Shown piece by piece: positions 1 to 15,278 of a stretch of DNA of 42,234 nucleotides. A program made the translations under genes and the position numbers. How positions within the stretch are numbered: position 1 is the first letter of the stretch; every line of letters begins with the position of its first letter. The DNA comes from a virus, in the IMG/VR virus record IMGVR_UViG_3300036770_002276, positions 1-42,234 of that record; one strand, written 5' to 3'. The notes under the pieces were generated by a model, which saw only the letters and a list, made by a program, of their open reading frames with translations, was not told the origin of the DNA and did no database searches.

Positions 1-253
1 TGCGGTACACGAATTCAACACGGCTGCCTTTGATTTTCAGGCTATCAAGTAGCCGCCGATTCTCTTCCCGTAACTGGTCATTTGTCAAGGTCAATGTTCG
101 GGCGGTTGCCGATGCCGTCTGCTGAATAGCAACGTAATTGCTGGCATGCCGTTCGGCCTCAGCCTTGTAGTTGCAGGACTGCTTACCCAAAATAAAAGCG
201 GCAATCAGGGCTAAGATGCCCCAATGCCGCAAAAGAAACCCCGTCCAATTCAT
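1..253 (-). CDS. Spanin-like membrane/coiled-coil protein, 3' part missing (copy 1)
   Basis: Only the first 84 residues lie in the window; the gene runs off base 1. It starts with one membrane segment (about residues 5-22, ending at a Cys) followed by a charged helix likely to form a coiled coil (residues 28-72). The ATG overlaps the metallophosphoesterase stop as ATGA. The complete counterpart is at 38285-38863 and is nearly identical over the shared part. The single N-terminal anchor plus periplasmic coiled coil, just after the endolysin and phosphoesterase, fits an inner-membrane spanin (Rz-like). The role is inferred from architecture and position only. Confidence 0.6.
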   Translation of the reverse strand, partial: MNWTGFLLRHWGILALIAAFILGKQSCNYKAEAERHASNYVAIQQTASATARTLTLTNDQLREENRRLLDSLKIKGSRVEFVYR

Positions 254-1284
254 CGTACCTTGCGATTGTCAATGCGAAAGTTCTCAACACTAAAGTTGCC
301 GTCTTCTTCAGCCTCAACAATGGCCGCACCGTGATTCCACTTGGTGAAAGCAAATGGCCGATACGCTGGGCGCAAATCACAAAGGCAACCTGTTGAAAAG
401 CAAGCAACTCCTTTGCCGTTCAGGTCACTTTCGTGATGCTCCGATGTTTGATGGTTATGCCCAGCCAAGGTAGATGCCTTGCCACGCAAGAACAACCCAC
501 GTGCTGGGTTAACAGGGCTGAAGATGCTATCCCCGAATTCGTGGCCGTGAATGACGTTTAACTTGCCGAACTTGGCCACTTGTTTGCTGTCGATTAGTTC
601 GATTTCAAAGTCATCCAAGCCAAGGGCCTTTTTCAATTGCAACCCGTCAAGGCCATGCAGTTCAGGTGCGTTCTGTAAGATGTAGCGTTCCCACCTATCC
701 TCATGGTTACCAAGTTTGTAATACACATCAACACCAAGGTTAGAAATGCCCTCAAAGAAGTTTCTGGCCATGCCGACCTCAACAACTGCAGAAGTAATGG
801 CAGGGTCTTTTTCCCAACGGCTAATCTTGGCGAAATCAATCACATCACCGTTTAAGTAAATGCCGTCAATGCCTGATTTAAACCCGTAATCAATAGCCGT
901 TTCTAATGCCTCCAAAGAATGGTACGGGATATGTATGTCGGATAAGACCAATACCTTGCGGTGATGCTTCGGCAAATGCCAATCGGCCTTGCTTGTTGTT
1001 TCGCCACGCTGAATGAAATTGGCCATGTATTCGCTGGGCTTCATCTCATCACGAACAAACTCAGCACGAAGTGTGCCCGATTTTTTCGCCCACTGTCTAT
1101 TAAAATCTCCTACAGTTCCAATGCGATACCTAATCGCCCTCCTTACACCGTCAATTTCTTTGTCGGTTTGGTCAAATATGCCGGGGTTTTCGGCCACGAT
1201 TTTTCTTGCTAATGTTCGGGCAAAGAATCCCGGTTGCTGTTCATCAAGGTAAGCCTCAATGATTTCAATCTTTTGTTTACTCAT
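250..1284 (-). CDS. Calcineurin-like metallophosphoesterase (copy 1)
   Basis: 344 residues. A 110-residue N-terminal region, rich in helices and basic residues, precedes a calcineurin-like phosphoesterase domain. The metal-binding series is complete: SDIH, NGDVID, GNHE, a lone VIHGHEFG and AGHNH. Such enzymes hydrolyse phosphomono- or phosphodiesters using two metal ions; the substrate is unknown. I chose the ATG at 1284 because it matches copy 2 (39894) and follows a well-formed promoter. It lies between amidase and spanin genes. Compared with copy 2 the catalytic part is almost invariant in protein, but the stretch before it (roughly residues 45-75) differs clearly. Confidence 0.88.
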   Translation of the reverse strand: MSKQKIEIIEAYLDEQQPGFFARTLARKIVAENPGIFDQTDKEIDGVRRAIRYRIGTVGDFNRQWAKKSGTLRAEFVRDEMKPSEYMANFIQRGETTSKADWHLPKHHRKVLVLSDIHIPYHSLEALETAIDYGFKSGIDGIYLNGDVIDFAKISRWEKDPAITSAVVEVGMARNFFEGISNLGVDVYYKLGNHEDRWERYILQNAPELHGLDGLQLKKALGLDDFEIELIDSKQVAKFGKLNVIHGHEFGDSIFSPVNPARGLFLRGKASTLAGHNHQTSEHHESDLNGKGVACFSTGCLCDLRPAYRPFAFTKWNHGAAIVEAEEDGNFSVENFRIDNRKVR

Positions 1285-1305
1285 GGTTTCCCTTTTTGGT
1301 TTAGC

Positions 1306-1334
1306 CAAATGTAGCAAAAATGCAATAGGCCAAA
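1306..1334 (-). promoter_or_regulatory. Bacteroidota-type promoter ahead of the phosphoesterase gene
   Basis: Read on the minus strand this is TTTG, 17 bases, then TACATTTG, matching the Bacteroidota -33/-7 consensus TTTG and TAnnTTTG. The expected start of transcription is 5-8 bases downstream, leaving a leader of about 15 bases before the ATG at 1284. The diverged copy at 39916-39944 keeps both boxes and the 17-base spacing while changing the two free n positions, which supports function. Confidence 0.65.
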
Positions 1335-1340
1335 CCTTTT

Positions 1341-1760
1341 TTAAGATTTCTTAACGGTTGCCCACCATTTTTTAGCATCGAAACAAGGGCAGGCTTTGGC
1401 AACATTCGGGAAGTCCCGATGCCCCAATACTTCAGCATTTGGGAATTGTTTCGCAAGCCTGTTCACCAATTCAGCCATTGCCTTGCGCTGTTCTTTCGTG
1501 CGGTTGTCCTTCGGCTTGCCCTTTTCATCAATGCCACCAATGTAACTGATGTGAATGCTATCGTGATTGTGCCCTTTCACCCCGTTGCTGGGCTTGGTGA
1601 TCGGCCAGTTTTCAACCACCTTGCCGTCACGTTCAATGATGAAATGGTAGCCGGGTGAACGCCAGTTTAGCACCTTTTTGTGGTAGCGGTTGATACTATC
1701 TGCCGTTGCAGTTACTGCGCTGGCGGTCGTGTGTAATACAATGTGGTTAATTGGTCGCAT
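1341..1760 (-). CDS. N-acetylmuramoyl-L-alanine amidase (endolysin), copy 1
   Basis: 139 residues, a single Amidase_2/PGRP domain of T7-lysozyme type with no separate wall-binding domain. The zinc site is visible as HTTAS near the N-terminus (His about residue 8), the HISYIGG strand, and GHRDFPNVAKACPC near the C-terminus, giving His and Cys ligands. It would cut the amide bond between muramic acid and the stem peptide during lysis. The start at 1760 is chosen because the protein begins MRPINHIVLH in both copies; it overlaps the preceding small gene by 14 bases. It has no signal peptide, so it needs the holin. Confidence 0.93.
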   Translation of the reverse strand: MRPINHIVLHTTASAVTATADSINRYHKKVLNWRSPGYHFIIERDGKVVENWPITKPSNGVKGHNHDSIHISYIGGIDEKGKPKDNRTKEQRKAMAELVNRLAKQFPNAEVLGHRDFPNVAKACPCFDAKKWWATVKKS

Positions 1761-1992
1761 CTTTAAATGGGTCTGGTTGAATAACTTCAAATTCGGTAGG
1801 TTCGCCAAGGATAGGCAACAGGCTTTCATCGAAGGCCATGTACCAAAACACAGGCTGGTTGTAACTTGCCTCGGCATACTCAACCCAATGTTGGGTAACG
1901 TCATCGGGGGCAACCGGTATGCCGTAGTATTTGTCGCAGTCGCTTACCGCCTTTTCTGCTACTTCTATCGTGTCAAATTTATAGCCTATCAT
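1747..1992 (-). CDS. Small acidic protein paired with receptor-binding protein, possible fibre chaperone (variant A)
   Basis: 81 residues, acidic, with no family recognised. It sits directly between the receptor-binding gene and the amidase. At the same place in the other copy (40357-40629) there is a different 90-residue protein; only the last residues (PFxDATN) agree, because they overlap the amidase start. The gene is therefore exchanged together with the receptor-binding domain. By analogy with tail-fibre assembly chaperones I infer that it may be a partner or folding helper of that specific protein. This is inference from position and co-variation only. Confidence 0.6.
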   Translation of the reverse strand: MIGYKFDTIEVAEKAVSDCDKYYGIPVAPDDVTQHWVEYAEASYNQPVFWYMAFDESLLPILGEPTEFEVIQPDPFKDATN

Positions 1993-1998
1993 GGTATG

Positions 1999-2868
1999 TT
2001 AAAATATGTTGTAATGCAAATTAATATCTGACTCGATGCCTATTCTGTTTGAGGATTGGTTTAATTGATAATAAACAAATTCTTGTATTCTACCGTCAAA
2101 AACACCATAAGTTGCCCCTCCGATTGAATATTCCGTACTTGAAGCATAGCTTGGGTAGGTGCCTGTACCAAATTTCAAAGTTAAAGCTTCGTTGATTCCA
2201 TTTATAAAATAATCGGTATTTTGTATTACATTCCCATTAATTGATGTATTTGCAATGATTGAAGATAGAATTGGTGTTAGTGTTGTTGATTTTGACGAAT
2301 CAATAGATGTGTTGGTATAAAGTCCGAATCTTTGTCCTGAAGTCAAATATGTATTTGTTTCAAACATATAGTTATTATTACCAATTCGTGATAAATCCCA
2401 AAATGGTAATCTGGCTGTTAAACTATCTAATTTTCCAACGGTAAATGTTGACATATAAATATTTGAAGATATATTCTCGTTTCTAATAAAAATATCGTTA
2501 GACCCGTCAAAATTCATTGACGGTTTTCCGTTGTCGGTTAAAATAGTACCATTAACAACAATTTGCGGTTGATTAATTGCGGTACCCTGACTTACCTGTC
2601 TACTATTTCCGCTTTGGTCATACCATGTGGTTACAAATCCATTCGTTCCTGAACAAAATGCGGTTAATGATGCTGTGTCAAGATTACCGTTTATGTCAAA
2701 CCCAATATTTTGTTCGGCATTGTCGCTTGACCTTCTAACCCTAATTGCGTTACCACTATATGCCGTTCTTAATTTGCGCAAAGAATAAGCCGCTGCTGCA
2801 TTAGGGTATAAATCTAAAAGCAATGGCGGCTGACCCCCAGCCATCATTTGTAACCTCAGCCTCCTCAT
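1999..2868 (-). CDS. Receptor-binding protein with lectin-like arabinofuranosidase-B-type domain (variant A)
   Basis: 289 residues. After a conserved lead MRRLRLQMMAGG shared with copy 2, the protein has the pattern AYSLRKLR, RVRRSSDN, GFVTTWYDQSG and FDG typical of the concanavalin-A-like fold of fungal alpha-L-arabinofuranosidase B N-domains, also found in tail fibres of Bacteroidota phages. It starts on the last base of the fibre stop (TAATG), so it is translationally coupled to the fibre. I infer that it binds, and perhaps cleaves, a surface polysaccharide. The gene is AT-richer than its flanks and is replaced by an unrelated gene in the other copy. Confidence 0.75.
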   Translation of the reverse strand: MRRLRLQMMAGGQPPLLLDLYPNAAAAYSLRKLRTAYSGNAIRVRRSSDNAEQNIGFDINGNLDTASLTAFCSGTNGFVTTWYDQSGNSRQVSQGTAINQPQIVVNGTILTDNGKPSMNFDGSNDIFIRNENISSNIYMSTFTVGKLDSLTARLPFWDLSRIGNNNYMFETNTYLTSGQRFGLYTNTSIDSSKSTTLTPILSSIIANTSINGNVIQNTDYFINGINEALTLKFGTGTYPSYASSTEYSIGGATYGVFDGRIQEFVYYQLNQSSNRIGIESDINLHYNIF

Positions 2869-3785
2869 TAAACCGCTGGTGTTATGATGTACCCAACATT
2901 AGTCCCTCCCATCCAAAAGAACACAATCAGGTTTACTTTGGTAAGGCTATAATCAATCGGCCCGAACTTTACCGCTGTGCCTCCAGTTACCACAATCAAA
3001 GGCGCAACCGTATCATCGTGATAAACAATTTGGTCGATGCCCCTAACCGCATTAGTCAGGCTAACCGCAATGTTGCCCGTTTCAGGTGATGCATACGTGC
3101 CGTATTCTTTCGGTGTGTCAAGGGTAATCGCAACCCCCGTAGTGGTGGCAACCGTGTTTTGCTTGCCAGCCAATGCAGTATCAACATAGCCTTTATTCGC
3201 CGCATCACTTGAAGCCGATGGACTTGAAAGAACGGTAATCGGGTTGTTGCCCATGTTCAGCGCACCAGTCATCGTGCCGCCCGAAGTATCTAACTTGCCA
3301 GCAAGGCCCGTATCAACGTACCCCTTAGTAGCAGCATCGGTGTTGTTGGTAGGTGTGCCAAGATTCTCAACCATTTGGCCGCCCATGTCAATATCCCCCG
3401 ACATCGTGCCGCCTGAAGTATCTAACTTGCCAGCAAGATTGGTGTCCACATAGTCCTTGGTAGCCGCATCATCAGGCGCAGAAGGCGTAGCAAGGTTTTG
3501 AAGTTCGTTGCCGCCCATATCCAAGTCCCCAGTCATCGTGTCCCCTGACTTCTGCACCGCATTATTAACTTGGCTTAAAGCGTTGTTTGCCGTTGCAAGG
3601 GCATTATTTGCGTTGGTGTTTGCAGATGCCGCCGTACTTGCTGCGCTGTTAGCTACCGCCAAGGTCGATGCCATTAGCAGTTGCTTTGTGGTTTTCTTCG
3701 ATACCCCAGCCTGCACAACGTACAGCAGGTCGGCATCGTTGCTGGTAGTCGCAGCGGTTAGTTGTGTTACCTTTTGGTTTGCCAT
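2868..3785 (-). CDS. Tail fibre shaft protein with three repeats (variant A)
   Basis: 305 residues. The N-terminus (MANQKVTQLTAATTSNDADLLYVV) is the usual virion-attachment part of many Bacteroidota phage fibres. An Ala/Asn-rich helical stretch (about 40-80) leads into three imperfect repeats of about 44 residues, each with GDTMTG/GGTMSG, then DMGG, then DAATKDYVDT and LAGKLDTSG. The C-terminal 80 residues form a conserved beta domain. The copy at 41429-42214 has only two repeats (261 residues), otherwise the same layout. It overlaps both neighbours by one base. Confidence 0.88.
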   Translation of the reverse strand: MANQKVTQLTAATTSNDADLLYVVQAGVSKKTTKQLLMASTLAVANSAASTAASANTNANNALATANNALSQVNNAVQKSGDTMTGDLDMGGNELQNLATPSAPDDAATKDYVDTNLAGKLDTSGGTMSGDIDMGGQMVENLGTPTNNTDAATKGYVDTGLAGKLDTSGGTMTGALNMGNNPITVLSSPSASSDAANKGYVDTALAGKQNTVATTTGVAITLDTPKEYGTYASPETGNIAVSLTNAVRGIDQIVYHDDTVAPLIVVTGGTAVKFGPIDYSLTKVNLIVFFWMGGTNVGYIITPAV

Positions 3786-4432
3786 TAGATTTCGATAAAG
3801 TCGTTAGTTTCTGTTAAAATAAAGTCACCGCTTTCAAGCAGTAGAAGGTCGGCAATGCCGGGACAAGATGCGCCCACAATGCAGTTCAGGTCACCCGTAA
3901 TGGTTAAATCCACCTCAAGCATAGCAGCGGCCATGTCAAGCGGCAACCGAAGGTCGATGTTATCAAACACCCCGTCCAACGTTTCTGCGCCGTACTGCCG
4001 ATTGGTTACAACCGTTTTGATTCGGTCAAGGCCAAGGGTAGCCCGCAGGCTTGGGATATTGTCAACCGTTACTGCCTTTTGAAGCGCAAGTAAGATGTAC
4101 TGTTCAAGGTACTGCGTATCGTTCTGCCATGTGCTGCGTGTACCAATCCAGTGAAACTTCAGGGGGATAGTGATTTGCACCCGTTCTTTGTTTGCACGTA
4201 CCCGATCCAGCAGTTCAATATCTTCTGCCCCGTTCTTCAACCAAAACGACATGCCAGTGCGCCAGTCAAATCGTGTGATGTAGTCAAGGTTGCCTTTGCC
4301 ATCGTAAATAGCTGGGAAGGTGCGCAGGTTGCCGTCCTTACCCGTTTCTTCTACAAGCTGGCATAATGGCCTTGCAACTGCCGAAATGTTGGGCAGTCGT
4401 GCGTTCAAATAAGATAGAATGTCGCTTATCAT
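3785..4432 (-). CDS. Putative tail-terminator/neck structural protein
   Basis: 215 residues, not assigned to a named family. Soluble, with mixed alpha/beta character; the C-terminus ends in a short repeat-like tail (LLLESGDFILTETNDFIEI) of a kind common in phage structural genes. It starts inside the stop of the preceding neck gene (ATGA at 4429-4432) and its stop shares a base with the fibre ATG. Position between a completion-type protein and the tail fibre suggests a tail-terminator or connector role. The last six codons recur at the right end of the window, where a second copy is cut off. Confidence 0.6.
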   Translation of the reverse strand: MISDILSYLNARLPNISAVARPLCQLVEETGKDGNLRTFPAIYDGKGNLDYITRFDWRTGMSFWLKNGAEDIELLDRVRANKERVQITIPLKFHWIGTRSTWQNDTQYLEQYILLALQKAVTVDNIPSLRATLGLDRIKTVVTNRQYGAETLDGVFDNIDLRLPLDMAAAMLEVDLTITGDLNCIVGASCPGIADLLLLESGDFILTETNDFIEI

Positions 4433-4932
4433 TTGAACAAATCTACGACAATTTGCTCGGCCCTTTCGGTAAATTCTTTGCGTTCAGCATCCGAAAACTT
4501 GAAAGCATCGCCATATTTGTCTAAAAGCGCATCAACTTTGCCTTTTGGGTTGCCAGCGTTGTAGGTCATGCCTGTCGCTATAACAAACCCATTGTCGCTA
4601 ATTCGCAGTTCAGGGTTGACAATCGATTGCAGATACATTTGGCTGAATAGGCGAAACAATACCATCTTGCCCCTACCTAATGCACGTTTGAATTCTTTGT
4701 AGCCACCTTCGTATGTGCCTGCTGCCGATGCTATTGGTGTTTGATTTCGGCTAATGCTTATCGGCTTGGTTGAATATTCAGGCTTAATCGGCCCGCCCCC
4801 AGCATCTAAACCTTCTTGAAACACCCGTTTGAACTGCTTACGGCCAATCTGCGAAGACAAACCTACAAACCGCTTGCCGTTAATTGCCCGTTCTGCCTTG
4901 TTCAGTTTGGCTATGTAGTCCTTGGTAGTCAT
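4429..4932 (-). CDS. Putative head-tail joining / virion morphogenesis protein
   Basis: 167 residues, basic. An N-terminal helix is followed by a GLDAGGGPIKPEY segment, YEGGYKEFKRALGR, and a strand with GFVIATGM, resembling neck or tail-completion proteins of the HK97 gp10/Mu gpG type. The family match is from memory of the pattern, not a search. It overlaps both neighbours by ATGA, so it belongs to the same translational run as the putative tail-terminator gene. I infer an adaptor joining head and tail. Confidence 0.5.
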   Translation of the reverse strand: MTTKDYIAKLNKAERAINGKRFVGLSSQIGRKQFKRVFQEGLDAGGGPIKPEYSTKPISISRNQTPIASAAGTYEGGYKEFKRALGRGKMVLFRLFSQMYLQSIVNPELRISDNGFVIATGMTYNAGNPKGKVDALLDKYGDAFKFSDAERKEFTERAEQIVVDLFK

Positions 4933-5156
4933 TTACCCGTGATGCGGCGTATTTCGGCTTCAACTTCGCTAAGTAGTTCGTATCGGTAATAGCTATCAAC
5001 CCCGTCAATATGCTTAACCCCATACTTCAACTTATCGCTGCCGTCATAGCAAATGGTAACTACAATGGCTGGGCTTTCGGGGTCAATCTTGGCAAATACA
5101 ATATCGCCGGGCCATAGGTCGTTGACTTCAAGTAATTGGTTCACGTGGTCTTGCAT
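4929..5156 (-). CDS. Small acidic hypothetical protein
   Basis: 75 residues, acidic, compact alpha/beta. The phrase WPGDIVFAKIDPE followed by a VVTICYDGSDKLKYG strand pattern suggests a small SH3- or Tudor-like beta barrel, but I do not recognise a family. It starts two bases after the preceding stop and overlaps the next gene by ATGA. It lies in the neck-gene run between the terminase and the fibre, so a structural or assembly role is possible. Function unknown. Confidence 0.6.
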   Translation of the reverse strand: MQDHVNQLLEVNDLWPGDIVFAKIDPESPAIVVTICYDGSDKLKYGVKHIDGVDSYYRYELLSEVEAEIRRITGK

Positions 5157-5158
5157 GC

Positions 5159-5431
5159 TTATAGTTTTATTTTGCCAAAGAATGGTTTGTCGCTTACCGA
5201 TTTGTTACCACGGCATGACCAAAGTTCACGGGCCCAGTAATTCGCACTACCTTTGCCGCTACCTTCGATGCCTTGCGACCTTGCGCAGTAGCTATCACCA
5301 GCAGATGTGCCGGGTTTAATTCGATATCCGCTTGCCCCGAAATGCACGGGTGGATTGTCACCGCATTGCGCTTTGTACTTTTTGCCCTTGCGGTCGGAGG
5401 GCCCGATGTTGCAACCTTTGTATTCTGCCAT
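5159..5431 (-). CDS. Small Gly/Lys-rich phage protein of unknown function
   Basis: 90 residues, basic. It contains KGKKYKAQCG, VHFGASGYRIKPGT and AGDSYCARSQGI, a pattern I know from small phage proteins where a K-Y-K strand, a HFG turn and a SYCARS segment recur; no biochemical role is established that I know of. The alternative overlapping frame (5194-5448) lacks this pattern and is taken as a shadow. It follows the terminase large subunit after a gap of about 100 bases and opens the neck-gene run. Confidence 0.65.
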   Translation of the reverse strand: MAEYKGCNIGPSDRKGKKYKAQCGDNPPVHFGASGYRIKPGTSAGDSYCARSQGIEGSGKGSANYWARELWSCRGNKSVSDKPFFGKIKL

Positions 5432-5486
5432 AGCCTAAATTTATGCAATCGGTTTGAAAGTGATGGCTTTTTATACGATACAACTT

Positions 5487-5530
5487 GTCATATACGGCAC
5501 AAACACCACTTGTTTCTCCCCTTATATGAC
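5487..5530. repeat. Inverted repeat in the terminase-neck gap
   Basis: GTCATATA at 5487-5494 is matched by its reverse complement TATATGAC at 5523-5530, with 28 bases between. It lies in the only sizeable non-coding gap (5432-5533) of this gene run, between the terminase and the next gene. It could be an operator or a packaging-associated site. With 8-bp arms it could also be chance. Confidence 0.3.
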
Positions 5531-5533
5531 CAC

Positions 5534-6853
5534 TTACCTGAAAATAAACTGCCGATTGTTGGCCTGAAGGTCATACCTTAGGCAGTCCAAGGCATCGGCA
5601 CGCTTGTCAACCTTCGCCCGGCTGCCTTTATCAACACCGCCATCAGGTAACGCTTTCACGAATTCGCAATCCCTTATTAGCACCTTGCACTTGGGGTTAA
5701 TTAGTATTTCATCGTAGTTACTGAATATGCTATTGCATAACCGCCGTGATTCTTGGTGGGGTGGGTTAGACCTTGGCACAAGTAGGTTGTTCGTGCTGAT
5801 GCGCATCCTGTCCACAATCTCCGACCACATATTTTGCCCTACCTTGGCGATGACCGACTGCTGCCTACCTGAAGCATCCCCCGTTACAAAGTACAACCTG
5901 TTCTGCACTTGCGCTGGGGTTCGCCTGAAGATTTCTTCAACCATAGCTTCAATGAAGGTCTTGCCTTGGATATGGTCGGCGGTCAGCGTTATTTCATCGA
6001 AGTAGTGAATGAATTGTTTGCCATCTTGGTGTCTGCCCCGATGCGCTAAGATAGCCGTGAATGGGTTGTTGTTGAAGTCAATGCTAACGTAAACGGGCAT
6101 GCTGGTGTCGTAGGTGGCCTTACCCCCAACGTGCTTTTGACGGTCAAACGAATAAAGCCAATTCAGGCCCGACATGGTAACCCGATTGGCCAGCACCTCA
6201 CGTTTGAATGTCAGGCTGTCATACGTCTTTTCTAACTGTTCGATGTAGCCTTCGGGCAGATTCGCCCTGTTGTCATACGTTGTGCCGATCGTGTGCGCTA
6301 TCTGCTTTTCACCCCATATCAGTTCGTCAATATCGGGATTGTCCATTGGCGGGGTCATTGTCCAAAGCGTTCGTGGAAACTTCGCCCCCGACATACGGCC
6401 CATAACGATATTCAGGCTATCGATGGCCGCATCTTGCACTTCATCACCCCAGCACCATCCCAGTTCAATACCCCGTATCATTGTTTCAATGCTAAACGTA
6501 ATTACCTGCGCCCCGTTCATAAACGACCACACCCCGTTGTGCTTTTCAAACTTCGACTTGTAACCAAAGTAGCGTTCGGGGTCTTTATTGGCCACATAGT
6601 GTTCGCCTTTGAAAAGGCCATAGGCTTCAAGCACGCCGATGAATTCGGATAAGGTTGCCGTGTTTAACTGGCTGACCGTATTACTGAAGATGCCTCCCTT
6701 TATTTCGGGTTGATGAATGATGTTGTGCAGGGCCCAATGCGCCCCAGTTATGGTCTTGCCTGACCGAATCCCCCCGACATATGCATACAGCCGTTGGGTT
6801 TCGCTGGCGGTTAATGTTTCGTGCTGCTTCGGGTTTAAGTTATACCTCTTCAT
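5534..6853 (-). CDS. terL: Terminase large subunit
   Basis: 439 residues, the usual length for the family. The N-terminal ATPase has Walker A GGIRSGKT (residues 27-34) and Walker B with WGDE (135-138), and the T-x-P segment TMTPPM (165-170) fits the coupling motif. The C-terminal RNase H-like nuclease shows acidic residues at VSIDF (D259) and VTGDASG (D326), and a late ADALDCLRY motif typical of phage terminases. It pumps DNA into the prohead and cuts the concatemer. It overlaps the small subunit by 14 bases. Confidence 0.96.
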   Translation of the reverse strand: MKRYNLNPKQHETLTASETQRLYAYVGGIRSGKTITGAHWALHNIIHQPEIKGGIFSNTVSQLNTATLSEFIGVLEAYGLFKGEHYVANKDPERYFGYKSKFEKHNGVWSFMNGAQVITFSIETMIRGIELGWCWGDEVQDAAIDSLNIVMGRMSGAKFPRTLWTMTPPMDNPDIDELIWGEKQIAHTIGTTYDNRANLPEGYIEQLEKTYDSLTFKREVLANRVTMSGLNWLYSFDRQKHVGGKATYDTSMPVYVSIDFNNNPFTAILAHRGRHQDGKQFIHYFDEITLTADHIQGKTFIEAMVEEIFRRTPAQVQNRLYFVTGDASGRQQSVIAKVGQNMWSEIVDRMRISTNNLLVPRSNPPHQESRRLCNSIFSNYDEILINPKCKVLIRDCEFVKALPDGGVDKGSRAKVDKRADALDCLRYDLQANNRQFIFR

Positions 6854-7202
6854 CGTTTTTCACGATGTTGAAAGTAAAGTTGCTTGGCCACTTGACGTTC
6901 TCCCGCTTTTCTTCGTGCTGCCTGTTATACCCCCTTGCCTTGCCTTTGCTGTTCAGGTAGAAGATTATGGCGGTTGTGTCGCCCTTGTTGATTCTGTCAA
7001 TTAGCTTGTTTTCGACAAAGTCAAGTTGAATTTCGCTTATTTCGTTTACTTGCCGCTTGTATTCTTCATCGTTCTTCAACCAGTCATAGTGGCAATCCCT
7101 TGAAATATTGGCCGCCTTGCAAGCGGTTGTAACAATGCCAAGCGACTTTTCAAGGGCCTCCAGTAGCAGTTTTTTTCTATTGTCGGTTTTGTTGTTCGGC
7201 AT
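6840..7202 (-). CDS. terS: Terminase small subunit
   Basis: 120 residues. An N-terminal helix-turn-helix region (about 10-55, with TTACKAANISRDCHYDWLKND) is followed by a helical oligomerisation part containing TTAIIFYLNSKGKARGY, a hallmark of phage small terminases. It recognises the packaging site on phage DNA and feeds it to the large subunit, whose gene overlaps its 3' end by 14 bases. The ParB-like gene ends one base before this gene starts, so packaging and partition-like genes are co-transcribed. Confidence 0.88.
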   Translation of the reverse strand: MPNNKTDNRKKLLLEALEKSLGIVTTACKAANISRDCHYDWLKNDEEYKRQVNEISEIQLDFVENKLIDRINKGDTTAIIFYLNSKGKARGYNRQHEEKRENVKWPSNFTFNIVKNDEEV

Positions 7203-7203
7203 A

Positions 7204-7698
7204 CTACTTCATTGAAACATTAAACCCTCGGCCTTTAAGTTCATCGAAAAGGTCTTCTAAGGTTATGACATCGGCCTCCACAATCAATGTGTTAGCGTCT
7301 TGTTCTTCAGGTTCATCGTTGGGCATTTCGGCATCAAATCCCGGTATATCCAACCCCCAACGTGTAAGCTCCTCAGCATCCCATTCGTTGGCCAACTGCT
7401 CCCAATTCCAATCCCCAAACCCTACATTATCCTTTATCACAAATTCATCTTTTTGTGCATCGGTCAATCCTTCGGCAACCACAATCGGCACTTCTTTCCA
7501 CTTCAATTCTTGCATTGCCTTTAGACGCATGTTGCCGCCCAGAACGGTCATGGTTTCATCGACCACTAAAGGACGAATAGTAGCCATCTCAGGAAACTCC
7601 ACAAGCGAAGCCACCAACTTTTTGAATTTTTCATCCCGTATAAATCTTGGGTTGCGGCTGTTTCCCTTCACCGAACCGATTGGTACAAGTTTAACCAT
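7204..7698 (-). CDS. ParB-like (ParB/Sulfiredoxin fold) domain protein
   Basis: 164 residues. The N-terminal 110 residues are a ParB/Srx-type domain: NSRNPRFIRDEKF, then RPLVVDE, GGNMRLKAMQEL and KDNVGFGDWNWEQL. The GGNMR box corresponds to the nucleotide-binding GxxRR-type motif of ParB relatives. The acidic C-terminus (DEPEEQD) is probably flexible. In many phages this domain is fused or adjacent to a DNA methyltransferase; no such enzyme is seen here. It sits directly before the terminase genes, overlapping the VRR-NUC gene by 8 bases. Its role may be in packaging or DNA modification; uncertain. Confidence 0.85.
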   Translation of the reverse strand: MVKLVPIGSVKGNSRNPRFIRDEKFKKLVASLVEFPEMATIRPLVVDETMTVLGGNMRLKAMQELKWKEVPIVVAEGLTDAQKDEFVIKDNVGFGDWNWEQLANEWDAEELTRWGLDIPGFDAEMPNDEPEEQDANTLIVEADVITLEDLFDELKGRGFNVSMK

Positions 7699-8035
7699 TT
7701 TTGATGATTTCGTTAATTAAATTTGCGAAGCTGTCCAATGTACGTACAATGTAATAACGTCCCCCGTTCGACTTTAGCATCTTTTCAAATTCTTTTTGCT
7801 CATCACTTTGGCGGCCATTACCCATTTTCAGTTCGATGCCGTGTAACGTGCCCTTGTAGAAAAACAATAGGTCGGACACCCCAGCGACTACACCCATGCC
7901 TTTCAGCACGGCCCCGTTTGATGCGTTGATTGCCCTGCCGTTCGTGTGCCATAGGTTGCGATATAGGTCAGGATAATACTGCCTGAAAAAGCGCACACAG
8001 GCCAATTGCAAAAGATGTTCACCGACTTTGGGCAT
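7691..8035 (-). CDS. VRR-NUC domain nuclease
   Basis: 114 residues, a stand-alone VRR-NUC domain of the PD-(D/E)xK superfamily. Visible are GAVLKGMGVVAGVSD (catalytic D55), GIELK (E68 and K70) and the following GRQSDEQ helix. Phage members cut branched DNA, for example Holliday junctions, so this may resolve recombination and replication intermediates before packaging. It lies just upstream of the ParB/terminase genes, as is common. The start is the ATG at 8035, right after a possible -7 box at 8040-8047. Confidence 0.93.
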   Translation of the reverse strand: MPKVGEHLLQLACVRFFRQYYPDLYRNLWHTNGRAINASNGAVLKGMGVVAGVSDLLFFYKGTLHGIELKMGNGRQSDEQKEFEKMLKSNGGRYYIVRTLDSFANLINEIIKNG

Positions 8036-8039
8036 ATGG

Positions 8040-8070
8040 CAAATTTAGGCCATAAGTTTCATGTGTGCAA
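8040..8070 (-). promoter_or_regulatory. Possible promoter ahead of the VRR-NUC gene
   Basis: On the minus strand TTG, 20 bases, then TAAATTTG, a perfect -7 box but only a partial -33 box with longer spacing than in the better promoters. It lies in the 3' end of the preceding gene, and the -7 box ends 5 bases before the ATG at 8035, so any transcript would be nearly leaderless. Confidence 0.35.
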
Positions 8071-8260
8071 GTGTAACCATATGCAAGCGTTCAAAGTACG
8101 GCAGAAATGCCCTTTTGCCAGCGTTGTATTTCAAAATTGCGATATGCGATTTGGTAAACATGCCAAGGTCGTTAATGTGCTCACAGCCGATTTGGATTTT
8201 CGGTTGCGGCTTAGTCAAATCAATACCTTGCCAGTATGATTCGATTTCGGTGATGTTCAT
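8045..8260 (-). CDS. Small hypothetical protein
   Basis: 71 residues starting MNITEIESYWQG. I chose the ATG at 8260 because it overlaps the stop of the helicase-loader gene as ATGA; an upstream in-frame ATG at 8284 would overlap more. No family recognised. The C-terminal half is helical with many His and Met residues. It sits in the replication run between the DnaC-like loader and the VRR-NUC nuclease. Confidence 0.55.
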   Translation of the reverse strand: MNITEIESYWQGIDLTKPQPKIQIGCEHINDLGMFTKSHIAILKYNAGKRAFLPYFERLHMVTLAHMKLMA

Positions 8261-9033
8261 TGCGGCGGTGTGTATTTGCCCCAAAAAGCGTTGCGCATTT
8301 CATCGGCTTTGCTTGGCGGCGCTTCAACTACCCGATTGGCAATAATGCCCAACTTTTCGTAAATCTCAGCACGAAGATGGTCGGGGCATGGCACACCTTG
8401 TTCTTCGGGTTCGGCTGGCAAAACAACCTTTGGCCATTCAGCAAGCGGCATCACTTCGACCTCCCCCCGAAGGTCATCACCCGGCATGATAATCGTTTCC
8501 CATTTTTTAAAGCGTGACATTAGCCGTGCATCAGGTTGCCCATCAGTCCCGAATCTTGCCAAAATTTGGGACAACGTGTTGTTTGAAATAATGCCAGTAA
8601 TAAACTTGCTATCCATTCGGCTTTCGATAATGTCGTATAGGATCGTGTTCTGCCGACCAAACGCACCGACCGCTTCATCTGCACCGACATCATCTAAAAT
8701 CAAATGCCCGTACTTGGTTTTGTGGATGAACGCCAAGATGAATTCATCAGGGTTTTTCATCGCCGCATACTCACGAAATAAATGCCGCATGTTGTAGAAG
8801 GTAAACTGCTTTTCGGGTTGTGCCGCTAAGAATAAACGTGTGTAGATTGTTTTGCCTGTGCCCGTATCACCCGTCAAGAAAAACGATTTGTTGGTGTCAA
8901 ATGCGGTGCAAAGCTTTCGCACGGCGGCGGCCCGTTCTTTTGTTAAAACCATTTTGTTTGGTTGAAATACGATGTTTGCCAGTTCAATTGCCCGGCGGTC
9001 AAGGGTTGTTTCGGTTAGTGTGTAGGTTTTCAT
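8257..9033 (-). CDS. DnaC-like AAA+ helicase loader
   Basis: 258 residues. It has Walker A GDTGTGKT (55-62), Walker B LILDDVG (111-117) and a sensor-like IISNNT strand (about 148). The overall layout is that of DnaC/IstB-type ATPases, with an extended, Pro/Glu-rich C-terminus. These proteins load the replicative helicase onto single-stranded DNA; no phage helicase is visible in the window, so it probably recruits the host DnaB. It is preceded by the RadC gene and followed by a coupled small gene. Confidence 0.88.
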   Translation of the reverse strand: MKTYTLTETTLDRRAIELANIVFQPNKMVLTKERAAAVRKLCTAFDTNKSFFLTGDTGTGKTIYTRLFLAAQPEKQFTFYNMRHLFREYAAMKNPDEFILAFIHKTKYGHLILDDVGADEAVGAFGRQNTILYDIIESRMDSKFITGIISNNTLSQILARFGTDGQPDARLMSRFKKWETIIMPGDDLRGEVEVMPLAEWPKVVLPAEPEEQGVPCPDHLRAEIYEKLGIIANRVVEAPPSKADEMRNAFWGKYTPPQ

Positions 9034-9035
9034 GT

Positions 9036-9482
9036 TTACAATTTACTGTTATCAGCAAAAGAAAAATAGGTTTCTTCAGTCAAAATTACATGGTCTAAAA
9101 GGGTGCAATCAAATAACTGTGCTGCTTTTTGTATGTTTTTTGTTATTGTATAGTCTGCCTGTGAAGGATTTGTGTTGCCGCTTGGGTGATTATGTGCAAG
9201 AATAATCCCGTGAGCAAGCGTATCGGCAATGTATTTGGCTATTATTTTAATATCAACTACTGTGCCTGCTGTACCGCCTTGACTTATTTTTGCATATCCT
9301 GTCGTAATATTGCCACGATTCAGCAATAAAATAAAAAACGATTCGTAAATGCCAATATCATCATGATAAAATTGCCTAATAAATTGCTCTGCATCTTTGC
9401 TTGATGTTATTTTGGCTTTTGGGAAATCGCTTTTGTTCTTCGTAATCGAAAATTGTGGTGTTGTTGTTTTGTAGGTTTTCAT
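9036..9482 (-). CDS. RadC-like JAB/JAMM domain protein
   Basis: 148 residues, only the JAB domain of RadC without the helix-hairpin-helix part. The full metal-site signature is present: Glu47 in YESFFILLLN, HNHPSG (97-102) and Asp110 in SQADYTITK. RadC-family proteins are frequent in mobile elements and phages; their activity is poorly defined, with proposed roles in DNA repair and anti-restriction. The gene stops two bases before the DnaC-like gene, and both proteins begin MKTY, probably by chance. Confidence 0.92.
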   Translation of the reverse strand: MKTYKTTTPQFSITKNKSDFPKAKITSSKDAEQFIRQFYHDDIGIYESFFILLLNRGNITTGYAKISQGGTAGTVVDIKIIAKYIADTLAHGIILAHNHPSGNTNPSQADYTITKNIQKAAQLFDCTLLDHVILTEETYFSFADNSKL

Positions 9483-9502
9483 TCTGCTAAGGTATAAAAA
9501 AA

Positions 9503-10303
9503 TTAAAACGGCATATCAGGTGAAGGGTTGGCCAAGGCTTCTAAACGCTTGGTGCTTCGTTCTGCTGCTGCTATCGTTGCTGGGTCTAACCAAGGCTTAC
9601 CTGCCGGCAAACTTGTTGATGTGCCTTTGGCTTGCTTTTCTTTTCTGCCATATAGCTGCGCCCAGTTCTTTTCTGCTGCCGACATTATTGCGGTGTACAT
9701 TTCGGCAACCGTATGCCCTTCAATTTCTTTTTTTGAAATCAGCATACTTTGCTTGGTAATGACTTTTTTTCTTTTAAGCCACATCATCGTTACTTCACGA
9801 AGGTTTTCATCGGTTTTAAAATCACCTAACAAATCATTGCAAAAATCTTCACGGGTGTATGTGCTTACATTCTTATTACCTTCTTTAATTATTTCTTTAT
9901 TACCTTCTTTATTATATATGCCCTGTGATGTGCCCTGTGATGTGCCTTCTGTTATGCCCTTTGATGTGCCCTTTGTTTGCCCTTTTGTCGTTTCTAAACC
10001 TTGGTAAACCGCCCAATTTACAAGGGTTACAAGCGAAAATTTACCGTGCCCTTTCCAAACGATTTCGCCACTATCTTCAAGAATTTCAATTGCCCTTCTA
10101 ACTTGCTTCTTTGTAAGGCCTGATTGGTCGGCAAATCTTTCATAACTGGTAACGAATTGTCCAGCCTGAACGGTTAGTTTGCCGAACTTTGATTGCATGA
10201 AATTTGCCGAAAGCAGGCAATGAATAAAGGCAGATTTTACTGGCAAATCATGATACCATGCCCAATCTTTTATCTTACGATGAAGTTGAATGTAGCCGCA
10301 CAT
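9503..10303 (-). CDS. DnaD/replication-initiation-like winged-helix protein
   Basis: 266 residues. The N-terminal region (about 1-90) starts with IQLHRKIKDWAWYHD and contains a winged-helix pattern, SGLTKKQVRRAIEILEDSGEIVWKG, typical of phage primosome proteins. A low-complexity Gly/Thr/Lys linker (about 90-120) is encoded by imperfect 12-base repeats near 9920-9985. A helical C-terminal part with a basic tail follows. I chose the ATG at 10303 because residues before it do not resemble the family. It sits upstream of the helicase loader, so origin binding or remodelling is likely. Confidence 0.75.
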   Translation of the reverse strand: MCGYIQLHRKIKDWAWYHDLPVKSAFIHCLLSANFMQSKFGKLTVQAGQFVTSYERFADQSGLTKKQVRRAIEILEDSGEIVWKGHGKFSLVTLVNWAVYQGLETTKGQTKGTSKGITEGTSQGTSQGIYNKEGNKEIIKEGNKNVSTYTREDFCNDLLGDFKTDENLREVTMMWLKRKKVITKQSMLISKKEIEGHTVAEMYTAIMSAAEKNWAQLYGRKEKQAKGTSTSLPAGKPWLDPATIAAAERSTKRLEALANPSPDMPF

Positions 10304-10313
10304 AGCGTTAAAA

Positions 10314-10418
10314 TTAGTAATGCCATGCCCCGAAGTCGCAAAATCCGGTAGCAATTGGGAACCATCCCTCGGATATCGCAGCCAACGGCAGCATGGCAAT
10401 TTTTGTTAATCTATTCAT
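10314..10418 (-). CDS. Possible 34-residue micro-gene
   Basis: A short open frame beginning MNRLTKIAMLPL with a mildly hydrophobic N-terminal half and ending ATGFCDFGAWHY. It fills the 160-base gap between a 177-residue hypothetical gene and the DnaD-like gene. Nothing but its fit in the gap supports it; the gap could equally be a leader. Confidence 0.2.
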   Translation of the reverse strand: MNRLTKIAMLPLAAISEGWFPIATGFCDFGAWHY

Positions 10419-10464
10419 TTGGCAATCGGCTTGCTACGGCCTCATCAAATATACAAAGAATCCG

Positions 10465-10998
10465 TCAAATATCGCACCATTCTGCACCTACTTTAATGGC
10501 CGAAACCATTCTCAGCATGTACTCAAATGCATCGTGAAACGGCATCGCATTGGCATTGTCTACTACTTCTTTGGTCATGCCTTCAATTGCCAACCAGCGG
10601 TCATCTTCTTGGTAGCCGATGCTCCATTTTTTGCTGCTGTAAATTAGCATAAAGTCGCTGTCGCTTATAAACGAATACCAAGCCACATCTTGCTGCGGTT
10701 CGCCGCCGAATTTTGACAATTCAAGGCTGTATCCATCGTCCGAAGGTGTGCAAAGTGGCCACATATCTTCGCCGATTACGGTTGTGCCGTGCCGAATCCC
10801 TTGTTCGTGCCGTTCGATGTCAGCACCGTATGGGTAGCTTTTAATGGCGTAGTCGAAGGCTACAATGGCAACGTGGTCTGGATAGTTTGAAACAAAGTCC
10901 ACAAGGCCTTTGCCGTTCATTTGCATGGCCATCATAACTTGCATCTTTTCTTGGTTGTAGGCGATGCCGATTTCGATTAGTGATTTTGGTGTGTTCAT
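10465..10998 (-). CDS. Hypothetical protein of the early region
   Basis: 177 residues, acidic. Begins MNTPKSLIEIGIAYNQEKMQVM; the middle has a VAIVAFDYAIKSYPYGADIERHEQ segment, and several aromatic strands follow (VAWYSFISDSDFMLIYSS). No family recognised. It follows a 76-residue gene by 18 bases and shares with it an A-rich leader without a Shine-Dalgarno box. Position between the SSB and the replication protein suggests an early host-interaction or replication accessory role. Confidence 0.7.
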   Translation of the reverse strand: MNTPKSLIEIGIAYNQEKMQVMMAMQMNGKGLVDFVSNYPDHVAIVAFDYAIKSYPYGADIERHEQGIRHGTTVIGEDMWPLCTPSDDGYSLELSKFGGEPQQDVAWYSFISDSDFMLIYSSKKWSIGYQEDDRWLAIEGMTKEVVDNANAMPFHDAFEYMLRMVSAIKVGAEWCDI

Positions 10999-11016
10999 GG
11001 TGTTGTGTATTAAAGG

Positions 11017-11247
11017 TTAAAGGTTAGTAGGTTTTGCCCAGTCAATCCGGTAACTTGAATTGTTGTGCTTTTCGATTTCAAAGCCGTTGGTTCGCAGCTT
11101 TTCAATGTCATCCTCAGCAATCGGGTTGAAAACCCAGCAGTACATTTCGCCCTGCTTTGCTTTGTCAAGGCACATGGCTTCGATTTCGGCCATTGTGATT
11201 CTTGGCTTTGATGTTGCCAAGTTGTAAAGGTGATTTGCGTAAATCAT
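11017..11247 (-). CDS. Small hypothetical protein of the early region
   Basis: 76 residues: an N-terminal helical stretch with MAEIEAMCLDKAKQGE, then a strand (YCWVFNP) and a compact C-terminal half with DDIEKLRTNGFEIEKH. It resembles a small two-layer fold but I cannot assign a family. It lies between the AT-rich 237-residue gene and the 177-residue gene, with an A/C-rich leader ending CACCATG like its neighbours. Confidence 0.6.
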   Translation of the reverse strand: MIYANHLYNLATSKPRITMAEIEAMCLDKAKQGEMYCWVFNPIAEDDIEKLRTNGFEIEKHNNSSYRIDWAKPTNL

Positions 11248-11266
11248 GGTGTTTGTTGTTAAGGGG

Positions 11267-11980
11267 TTATGCTATTTTTATTTGTTGTTCGATTTGGCCT
11301 CCATAATTAAAAGTATTTAAAACCTCTAAAACTTTCACTTCAATCTTTTTGCCCTTTGTTTTTTGCGCTATACCATTCACAATAGGCATCAGATATGGGT
11401 ACATGCCACCTACTGGTTTAGCTCCTTTACAAAGAACCTTTAATGTCGTATCGCCTAAAATTGCTTCTGTCCAACACTCAGTATAATTACCATTAGCATT
11501 AAATCCGTTTCTGTAAAATTCTAACTCAACAATATCACCTACCTTTACGGTTTTTGCCTGGGCAATTTCTAATTGATTTTGCTTTTCAATTTGTTCGAAA
11601 TGTGCAATATATTTTGGGTGATTAGTGATATATGGCATATCGTAATTTTTTGCACTCCAAAGGCAATATTTGAAGTCAAATTCCATAACTTCATCAATAA
11701 ACATTCCAGCATATTTGCCTCCCCAAAAGTAATTGTTAGGCAAATCAAGTTTTTCGTTTCTTGTAAATGATTTTGTGCCACGAAGTTCGCTATCAATTTC
11801 AACATTTGGATATAGTGATTTCACCTTATCCAAATTGGTTGAAATGTTCTTGCAGTAATAGTATTTATGGTCAACACCAGTTTGGTGATGATTACCATAG
11901 CTATCTGTTCTGTATTGAGGAACAGCCTCGTAATTCCAAAGCGTATAAAATTGTGTTGCAAATCCAATAATCTGTTTCAT
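11267..11980 (-). CDS. AT-rich accessory protein, function unknown
   Basis: 237 residues, rich in Tyr, Asn and Lys. The C-terminal half (from about 145) has the look of a small beta-barrel (KTVKVGDIVELEFYRNG, then several strands), perhaps OB- or SH3-like; the N-terminal half has many aromatic residues. No family recognised. The gene is visibly AT-richer than the SSB upstream and has its own promoter (12004-12032), a tandem repeat and a terminator for the preceding transcript just upstream, the same arrangement as at other accessory genes here. It looks like a separately acquired cassette. Confidence 0.65.
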   Translation of the reverse strand: MKQIIGFATQFYTLWNYEAVPQYRTDSYGNHHQTGVDHKYYYCKNISTNLDKVKSLYPNVEIDSELRGTKSFTRNEKLDLPNNYFWGGKYAGMFIDEVMEFDFKYCLWSAKNYDMPYITNHPKYIAHFEQIEKQNQLEIAQAKTVKVGDIVELEFYRNGFNANGNYTECWTEAILGDTTLKVLCKGAKPVGGMYPYLMPIVNGIAQKTKGKKIEVKVLEVLNTFNYGGQIEQQIKIA

Positions 11981-12003
11981 GGTGTAAATGTTTTAGTGTA
12001 CAG

Positions 12004-12032
12004 CAAACCTAAAAAGAATATCAATACGAAAA
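12004..12032 (-). promoter_or_regulatory. Cassette promoter ahead of the 237-residue gene
   Basis: On the minus strand the box TAGGTTTGC is a perfect -7 element, preceded by TTTTCG about 15-17 bases upstream as a weaker -33 element. The spacer carries GTATTGATATT, which recurs almost exactly ahead of the gene at 26411-26743 and in modified form at 15542-15570. Confidence 0.55.
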
Positions 12033-12038
12033 TCGGCA

Positions 12039-12057
12039 TTAACACTTTTTAACACTT
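12039..12057. repeat. Tandem TTAACACTTT repeat (possible operator)
   Basis: The 19-base element TTAACACTTTTTAACACTT, two copies of TTAACACTT set 10 bases apart, lies between a terminator and a cassette promoter. The same element occurs exactly at 26837-26855, inverted at 15578-15596, and degenerate at 20301-20318. Spacing of one helical turn suggests a protein-binding site; this is inference. Confidence 0.5.
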
Positions 12058-12063
12058 GGCCGT

Positions 12064-12096
12064 AAAAAGAAAAAGCCCCAACCTTTCGGCCAGGGC
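12064..12096 (-). terminator. Rho-independent terminator after ssb
   Basis: Minus-strand hairpin with stem GCCCTGGCC / GGTTGGGGC (9 pairs including G-T wobbles) closed by a GAAA tetraloop, followed by a T-rich tract. It lies 24 bases past the SSB stop and ends that transcript before the next promoter. Confidence 0.8.
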
Positions 12097-12119
12097 AATT
12101 TCACACCTAACACACTATC

Positions 12120-12485
12120 TTAGAATGGCAGGTTCTCGCCATCGGTTTGCAGTTCAGGTAAACGGCCGCCGCCTGTTTCGGTACGCAGACCGCCAAGCAG
12201 TTCGACTTGGTTGACTAAAACCTTGATGTCGTTGCCGATCTTGTCGTTGCCTTCTTTGTCCTTGTAAACGTCCAGCACAGGCCGACCGCTGATGTACACT
12301 TGCGTGCCCTTGCTTAGGTATTTTGCAACCCCGGCTGGCTTGCCGTCACGACCGAACAGCGTGCAGCGAAACCATTGGGTTTCTTCGCCTTTGCCAACGG
12401 CCACCGAAAAGGTGGTGATGTCTTTGTTTTTGCCGACCAGTTCAGCATCTTTGCCGATACGGCCAATCAATTGTAGTTGTAACAT
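12120..12485 (-). CDS. ssb: Single-stranded DNA-binding protein
   Basis: 121 residues, OB-fold of the bacterial SSB family. Recognisable parts are LIGRIGKDAEL, FSVAVGKGEETQWFRC, the YISGRPVLDVYKD strand pair and an acidic hydrophobic tail ending DGENLPF that matches the SSB protein-interaction tip. It is shorter than host SSB (about 150-180) because the linker is short. It coats single-stranded DNA during replication and recombination and is followed by a strong terminator. Confidence 0.95.
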   Translation of the reverse strand: MLQLQLIGRIGKDAELVGKNKDITTFSVAVGKGEETQWFRCTLFGRDGKPAGVAKYLSKGTQVYISGRPVLDVYKDKEGNDKIGNDIKVLVNQVELLGGLRTETGGGRLPELQTDGENLPF

Positions 12486-12488
12486 GGT

Positions 12489-12797
12489 TTATTTGGTTTT
12501 GATTAGTTTCTTACGTTGAATTGCTTTGCTTACGATATGCTGGCCGATTTCTTTGCCGTCCATCGACAGCCAAGACAGCAGGTGCTTAAGGTCAGCCGCC
12601 CGGTTGGCGCACGTGCCGATTATCAGTTCGCCCTTCTGCCCGTTTTGGGTAATGGCAATCGAAGCGGTTGCCGTTTCTTTGTCGGGATAAGAACGTACAA
12701 TAATAGGTACATCTAAATACGTTGGGCGAATCATTTGGGCCCAACTGCCGTCCTTGATTTGCTCAAAGCCAAGCTGTTCTAATTGCTCTTTTCTCAT
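12489..12797 (-). CDS. Small hypothetical protein before ssb
   Basis: 102 residues starting MRKEQLEQLGFEQIKDGSW. I preferred the ATG at 12797 over an upstream one at 12842, which would overlap the preceding gene. The pattern (helix, then strands with YLDVPIIVRSY, then TASIAITQNGQ) suggests a small alpha/beta fold; no family recognised. It ends three bases before ssb and is probably co-translated, so a replication or recombination helper role is possible. Confidence 0.6.
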   Translation of the reverse strand: MRKEQLEQLGFEQIKDGSWAQMIRPTYLDVPIIVRSYPDKETATASIAITQNGQKGELIIGTCANRAADLKHLLSWLSMDGKEIGQHIVSKAIQRKKLIKTK

Positions 12798-12817
12798 GGT
12801 TTTGTGTGTGTTAATGG

Positions 12818-13417
12818 TTAATAAATGTATTTGCCTACCCAAACGGTTTGGCCTTGTGAGTTTGTGGTTGTTTTTCGCTCAATCAAAATATCATCGAAAT
12901 CATATTCTTTTGATATAGTCTGAGGGTTAGGATATATCCTTTCCACTTCACACTCAAACCCAACAGGCATCTTAGGTTGTTGGAGGGATTGGATAAAATC
13001 TCTTTCTTCTTCATGATCAATGTGTCCATTTCTACCATTTTGTCTATATCCAAATACAACAGCTTTCATTATATCCTCCTCTGTGTACTTATACTTCTCT
13101 TTGGCTTTGTTGTAGCCTTCTATAAAAGCATATACTCTTAAGGGTTCATTATCGGGTGTGTTTATAACATAGGCTTGTACCAATTCCAGAACCTCATCCT
13201 CAAGCGGTGGCAAAAGTGGCACACCTTCAAGAACAGGTGAGTTGTTGAGCGGTAGGTGGGCTATGATTTTTGCGTCCGATTGGGTAAAATTATGATATCC
13301 TTTGCCTGCAATATTAACGCTATTAGAATCGGATTCATATATCCAATCTCCCTCTTTAATCTCCGAATCATCTACTACCAGCAGATAGTTTTCGGTTTTG
13401 ATAATGTTGTGTCTCAT
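12818..13417 (-). CDS. Hypothetical protein of Bacteroidota-phage type
   Basis: 199 residues, acidic. It contains SDAKIIAHLPLNNSPVLEGV followed by LPPLEDEVLELV, then a helical region with AFIEGYNKAKEKYKYTEEDIMKAV and a C-terminal strand region rich in Thr and Glu. I have seen similarly built proteins in Bacteroidota phages, always without assigned function. It follows the DnaA-like gene by 12 bases, inside the replication run. Confidence 0.65.
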   Translation of the reverse strand: MRHNIIKTENYLLVVDDSEIKEGDWIYESDSNSVNIAGKGYHNFTQSDAKIIAHLPLNNSPVLEGVPLLPPLEDEVLELVQAYVINTPDNEPLRVYAFIEGYNKAKEKYKYTEEDIMKAVVFGYRQNGRNGHIDHEEERDFIQSLQQPKMPVGFECEVERIYPNPQTISKEYDFDDILIERKTTTNSQGQTVWVGKYIY

Positions 13418-13429
13418 TGTTTGTGTGTG

Positions 13430-15074: not shown

Positions 15075-15265
15075 GGGTTTTGTTTGTAAAAGGTGATTAA
15101 ATTAAAAAGAACGTTGTTTGCTTGTCGCATTACCATTTTTCTTGGTATCAAAGGTGGCTGCGACCTGAATGTTGCGAATAGTATCGGCCTACCTTTGTCG
15201 GGCTTGCCGATAATTTGGATTTTGCTACCGCCAACAAGGGGCGATTCGATTAGGGTGATTTTCAT
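15071..15265 (-). CDS. Small basic hypothetical protein
   Basis: 64 residues, basic. Begins MKITLIESPLVGGSKIQIIGKPDKG and continues with hydrophobic strands; a short beta-rich protein without a recognised family. It overlaps the start of the annealing-protein gene by 4 bases, which suggests translational coupling, and follows the 77-residue accessory gene by 13 bases. Confidence 0.55.
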   Translation of the reverse strand: MKITLIESPLVGGSKIQIIGKPDKGRPILFATFRSQPPLIPRKMVMRQANNVLFNLITFYKQNP

Positions 15266-15278
15266 GGGTATATGTGTA

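Follow-up and report, generated by a model that had tools for sequence, protein, structure and literature searches.

A candidate exchange slot for two-gene adhesin-like cassettes at the end of a phage tail operon

The IMG/VR virus record IMGVR_UViG_3300036770_002276 (the window) is a linear contig, 42,234 bases long, and its two ends are diverged versions of one region. Both ends carry a tail fibre gene and an amidase gene, and the genes between these two differ. The original prediction, made from the letters alone, described two copies of one locus in which a single receptor-binding gene had been replaced, and suggested a cassette slot for host-range switching. We asked what is exchanged at this locus, how often this has happened among related phages, and whether the two versions belong to one genome.

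Alleles of the slot and their edges

The gene order on the minus strand is fibre, tip, small gene, amidase and metallophosphoesterase. In haplotype A, the fibre gene (2868-3785) has PHROG tail fibre matches, is conserved in relatives, and its stop joins the slot via TAATG. It is followed by the tip gene RBP_A (1999-2868) and by small_A (1747-1992), the end of which is overlapped by an amidase gene (1341-1769; PF01510 Amidase_2, E 2.2e-18; PHROG 822). This amidase and a metallophosphoesterase (250-1284; PF00149, E 3.3e-7) form the conserved flank on that side. Haplotype B consists of a fibre gene (41429-42214, also with PHROG tail fibre matches), RBP_B (40626-41429), small_B (40357-40629), an amidase overlapping the end of small_B (39951-40376; PF01510, E 3.3e-18) and a metallophosphoesterase (38860-39894), the record's second match to this protein, all on the minus strand.

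Alignment of the two ends by blastn paired 1-1772 with 38611-40382 at 89.1% identity without gaps, and 2834-3805 with 41395-42234 (84.1% over 2834-3415 and 87.3% over 3381-3805). The aligned segments end at 1772 and 2834 in one haplotype and at 40382 and 41395 in the other, leaving allele A (1773-2833) and allele B (40383-41394) with no counterpart in the other copy. The predicted full replacement between conserved flanks (84-89% identical) is thus borne out, as blastn finds nothing across the two alleles. The edges are as sharp as had been described, one lying after codon 12 of the tip gene and the other at the small gene/amidase overlap. RBP_A (289 aa) and RBP_B (267 aa) both start with MRRLRLQMMAGG, and TAATG couples the fibre stop to their start. 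The replaced unit does include the putative receptor-binding gene, but it is not one gene, because the next gene (small_A or small_B) is swapped too. The description of the tips as unrelated holds for their sequences, although both may be beta-sandwich (ConA-like) folds: profile comparison gave zero similarity signal between RBP_A and RBP_B, or between small_A and small_B. Common ancestry of the tips or of the two small genes was dropped on this signal-free comparison.

The flanking genes differ mostly by silent changes. Between A and B, there are 80 synonymous versus 21 non-synonymous codons in the metallophosphoesterase and 31 versus 5 in the amidase. This pattern argues that the A/B difference is no sequencing artefact and that both versions are real genes under selection.

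We searched IMG/VR with the metallophosphoesterase, both small genes, the amidase and the fibre, and kept contigs with an amidase at least 83% identical. The 33 related contigs, near-copies included, comprise 9 of type A, 15 of type B and 9 of a third type, C. Many relatives therefore carry alternative cassettes in this slot, where a lack of alternatives in related phages would have spoken against the prediction. The three types are interleaved on the amidase tree, with 11 changes where the minimum is 2 (the amidase may itself recombine), and type A alone needs at least 5 changes by well supported branches. This recurrent replacement agrees with the predicted cassette slot with alternative adhesin-like alleles. 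Close pairs of genomes have the same edges. Contig G011 (type A) is 94-95% identical to G007 and G008 (type B) over 86-90% of the length, and several stretches are replaced between them, the slot being the largest in the late-gene half. In the comparison of G011 with G007, identity on the fibre side is 94-99% in the fibre and 92% in the first 12 residues of the tip, then 8-33%; on the amidase side, it is 39% just upstream of the amidase and 95% within it.

Type C consists of a gene for 97-112 aa and a gene for 417-620 aa. It replaces the fibre, the tip and the small gene, and ends at the same amidase start as A and B. Examples are found in L005 (3904-5522), L007, L242, L254 and L256-L259; type C has several alleles, and one of these matches a tail-protein PHROG. 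Three longer contigs of 60-66 kb (L244, 60,202 b; L253, 65,101 b; L242, 65,909 b), which are without the neighboring gene found at 3785-4432 of the window, carry this same amidase beside either a B or a C cassette. This combination points to movement of cassettes between phage groups. Alternative adhesin alleles thus occupy one locus in otherwise similar genomes, as in an exchangeable host-recognition module. On these sequence comparisons, we consider the slot a true exchange site for adhesin-like cassettes, and its use in host-range switching is plausible.

The N-terminal stretch of the tips behaves differently from the rest. In the lineage, the first 12 codons occur as 11 DNA variants that all encode MRRLRLQMMAG; codons 2-5, 10 and 11 vary silently, and residue 12 is the sole changing residue. 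The 12-residue stretch, shared by alleles A and B in the lineage, thus appears to be under selection. Other lineages have different N-terminal stretches ahead of the same domains. As this stretch is kept in the lineage and other N-termini occur elsewhere, the N-terminus seems to go with the backbone and the remainder with the cassette. We interpret it as a probable anchor attaching the tip to the fibre. Two other contigs, L021 and L022 (metagenomes 3300005613 and 3300005611), are close relatives with nearly the same small_B and with tips that are strongly different after a common N-terminal stretch.

Tip proteins and their small partner genes

The 81-aa small_A and the 90-aa small_B each accompany one tip type. 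Among loci found with the small genes, an A tip precedes small_A in all 51 with an upstream ORF. The small_B gene is always behind RBP_B: among its 83 loci, it follows a B tip in 79 and an A-B fusion in one, and in three it is split from the tip by an endonuclease-like ORF. There was no mixed pair among these loci, so the partner changes type with the adhesin. Counting from the tips gave a similar picture. The gene next to the tip is small_B in 75 of the 77 B tips with enough sequence, and small_A in 49 A tips; small_B is next in one, the A-B fusion L373. The tip gene and the small gene are tightly coupled, with an overlap or almost no gap between them; in type B, there is mostly a 4-base overlap. 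The pairs also occur in arrays, in tandem as B-small_B-A-small_A in L368, likewise with both pairs in tandem in L169, and as two B pairs in L228; in L158, small_B and then small_A come after a fused A-B tip. Not all phages need the partner, since 22 of 80 loci with RBP_A homologs outside this setting are without small_A (most then have some other short ORF) and cultured phages with distant RBP homologs are without either small gene. A family of short ORFs of ~130 aa (MxxYIIVLPEGxLTSExRAKxITRELYNIT...), perhaps another partner family, lies directly behind RBP_A homologs that are without small_A (L389, L393, L395, L397, L408, L424, L427, L431 and L433).

No homologs of small_A or small_B were found in 50,697 phage records. 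Neither had a match in Pfam, NCBIfam or the functionally assigned PHROGs, nor homology to known chaperones of the Tfa or gp38 type, nor a PDB sequence match that counts. The AlphaFold2 model of small_B (pLDDT 90.7) retrieved nothing from the PDB at E<=0.001 with Foldseek, and the best Z with VIA-align was 2.6; these PDB searches thus retrieved no known chaperone or other solved fold for small_B. In BFVD, the model has one match at E<=0.001; this and the next few are uncharacterized proteins of uncultured phages.

Could the small gene be a passenger, moved only by its position between tip and amidase and serving another role, such as lysis timing? Physical linkage alone carries neighbors along, and many distant RBP_A homologs are without small_A, both points in favor of this reading. 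Yet the pairing also holds in L043 and L050, in which neither this lineage's fibre nor its amidase was detected, as well as in the tandem arrays and the A-B fusion L158, with zero mixed pairs. Moreover, small_B is the most constant part of the cassette while the tip varies. Among the lineage's type B members, pairwise identity averages 94% in the anchor, about 68-69% in residues 13-117, 28% in residues 118-233 and 61% at the C-terminus of RBP_B, and 90% in small_B. Linkage can explain the co-transfer, but not easily the missing mixed pairs across many backbones, arrays and fusions. We regard a passenger as rather unlikely, and a dedicated chaperone or cap as the most likely role of the small genes, with somewhat better than an even chance.

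The replacement itself could be driven by a homing endonuclease cutting endonuclease-free cassettes and not by ordinary recombination. In three separate loci, L098 (2473-3231), L135 (3231-3995) and L179 (2141-2905), one of which belongs to the window's lineage, an endonuclease VII/HNH-like ORF (phrog_3322) occupies the exact position between tip B and small_B. In addition, the gene behind RBP_A in Synechococcus phage S-CBS4 is annotated as an Srd anti-sigma factor, a PHROG label that those ORFs also match. However, an ORF of this kind is absent from both window alleles and from almost every relative, which makes this driver improbable.

The AlphaFold2 model of RBP_B (pLDDT 87.0, pTM 0.88) comprises helices and a ConA-like jelly roll behind the anchor. 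The best matches (Z 16-18 over ~183-204 residues) comprise the lectin-type (carbohydrate-binding) domain of arabinanase AbnA as well as many further lectin-type binding domains, clostridial neurotoxin subdomains included; at 9-13% identity, these matches indicate a common fold only and imply nothing on toxicity. No PDB sequence match to RBP_B counts. RBP_B is thus predicted to belong to the ConA-like lectin/glucanase superfamily, with a jelly-roll beta-sandwich, and it may act as a receptor-binding adhesin. In S-CBS4 (L350, 1414-4822), four tandem genes, two RBP_B-like and two RBP_A-like, occur with neither small gene. Weak hints suggest a host among the Bacteroidota: RBP_B and small_B occur together in a contig of a Chitinophaga MAG, and Flavobacterium phage FL-1 has a 33% RBP_B homolog.

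In RBP_A, the anchor is followed by a domain like the N-terminal part of GH54 and by a variable distal part. Residues 24-97 match Pfam PF09206 (E 3.7e-11), the protein matches PHROG 10356, virion structural protein (E 8.4e-24), and matches to PDB chains cover residues 16-87 only. Of the predicted lectin/arabinofuranosidase-B-like character, homology to the first part of the GH54 domain stands, while the catalytic part is unmatched. RBP_A might still be an active arabinofuranosidase-type enzyme digesting host polysaccharide, so that A cleaves where B binds, and cultured relatives are annotated as arabinofuranosidase. S-CBS4 and Gordonia phages are among the cultured relatives. Against this, the homology to the catalytic domain spans profile positions 13-87 of 315, and the unmatched remainder is the variable part of the protein. 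We therefore consider an enzymatic RBP_A quite improbable, and favor an adhesin that would bind a receptor.

Arrangement of the record and coexisting strains

Positions 1-127 of the window are an exact duplicate of 38611-38737. The first mismatch follows directly, with 11% divergence thereafter, and past 38737 the contig enters haplotype B. The exact overlap at the right end (42162-42234 versus 3733-3805) is 73 bases, compared with 127 at the left end. Relatives G007 (37,526 b) and G011 (38,266 b) have exact 127-base terminal repeats, which indicates complete circles of ~37.4 and 38.1 kb. The largest k-mer in common metaSPAdes use is 127, so these repeats are most simply assembler-made. The window has two metallophosphoesterase genes, against one in each of the 15 other records searched. 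Contig G001 (metagenome 3300034073) is identical to window 1-17734. Beyond position 1, it continues with its own variant of 38610-36855, in which the first 1,233 bases are identical and the next ~520 have 40 mismatches; it carries allele A only and goes on into flanking sequence of its own. Metagenome 3300034073 also yielded G016, a third strain (~90% identical) that starts inside the same junction and stops in the conserved fibre N-terminus. After a shared stretch, de Bruijn assemblers cannot tell which strain continues (PMC11443906). Given the end overlap, the complete relatives, G001, G016 and this assembler behavior, the contig appears to be more than one genome length and to mix at least two strains. 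The two copies of the original prediction are corrected to two alleles, with a left overlap of exactly 127 bases and a single copy in 15 other records. From these comparisons, A and B would be alleles of coexisting strains, not two copies in one genome, with a presumed join of haplotypes. The exact B allele was not found in any other IMG/VR contig.

Two genuine diverged copies of the tail-tip/lysis region, arising by duplication followed by replacement of one tip, would account for A and B in one contig. This supposed duplication sits exactly at both contig ends and begins with an exact 127-mer, no second copy occurs in any of the 15 other records, two of them complete, and G001, identical over 17.7 kb, has A only and runs into its own flank. 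Duplication is very improbable on these grounds; a tandem duplication in one genome was rejected, given one copy per record in 15 others, two of these with terminal repeats. Switching within a genome, by an invertible segment or a diversity-generating retroelement, is scarcely credible, because the alleles are whole-domain replacements in different genomes and no supporting point was found (neither a reverse transcriptase nor an invertase among the subset of window ORFs that were scanned or annotated). Elsewhere in the window, a GT8-like glycosyltransferase ORF (27844-28515) lies on the opposite, plus strand amid structural genes.

Proposed mechanism and relation to known systems

Our preferred explanation builds on the alleles, their edges, the recurrent replacement, the strict pairing and the predicted lectin fold of tip B, which are directly supported. 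In this proposal, the assembler would have used identical sequence to connect a single phage genome unit of ~38 kb to ~3.6 kb from another, coexisting strain, and the window would pass from A to B somewhere inside 17734-36855. The slot at the end of the tail operon would hold a two-gene adhesin cassette, coding for a tip protein and for a small protein matched to the type of tip. The tip would consist of the anchor and a lectin-like domain whose distal part is hypervariable. Recombination in the conserved fibre end and anchor on one side, and at the amidase start on the other, could then exchange cassettes between phages, and the anchor would keep an incoming tip attachable to the same fibre. 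The small protein would travel with the tip type and most likely fold, assemble or transiently cap the tip; the exchange may change host range. We consider this whole explanation, two strain haplotypes with one slot and an exchanged cassette with a type-specific partner, to be probable.

It is well established that phages swap recognition parts. In T-even phages, work by Tetart et al. from 1998, cited in PMC7468147, reportedly described exchange of the gp37/gp38 adhesin between conserved motifs at the distal tail fibre locus. In both systems, replacement affects a distal recognition gene flanked by conserved stretches where recombination takes place, and the unit includes the next gene. Here, however, the conserved motif is a 12-residue N-terminal anchor, after which the whole protein changes family, and the partner genes match no known family. 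In the host recognition module of Alteromonas phages A5, V22 and P24, the fibre has a cognate chaperone as a transient cap, and the fibre and its dedicated partner move together between distantly related phages, as here (PMC10579305). The slot of the window differs in that it can hold either of two unrelated tip families, each accompanied by a small partner of its own, and in that the partner has ~70-90 aa and no recognized fold family. Several variants of recognition genes coexist in one sample in Cryophage (PMC7468147). This phage and metagenomic and metaviromic islands (PMC7468147, PMC3909814) share with our lineage a phage core and a pool of coexisting recognition-gene variants; variant genes were described there, to which the present analysis adds the strict pairing of two genes and the exact edges of the slot. 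In Bacillus phages that combine different tail fibres and lysins (PMC10674732), close relatives likewise differ at the fibre and neighboring genes, but the lysin differs there, while here the amidase is a conserved flank and the small gene moves with the tip. By analogy, the best reading is that the cassette would work in the manner of the gp37/gp38 exchange of T-even phages and of the fibre-chaperone modules of Alteromonas phages. The partner families, their strict pairing and the third cassette type seem to be new.

The slot offers a clean natural experiment in changing recognition parts, with a similar backbone, exact edges, and alleles that differ by a whole protein family. It is also a warning that diverged contig ends can mimic duplication. 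More tentatively, and with somewhat less than an even chance in our estimate, small_A and small_B may be founders of unrecognized, fold-type-specific families of chaperone or cap partners, each serving a single family of lectin-like tips, in uncultured, mostly freshwater phages that chain, fuse and swap tip-partner pairs. Because the small genes are common in uncultured phages, yet without a homolog in the 50,697 records, they could mark adhesin genes in metagenomes.
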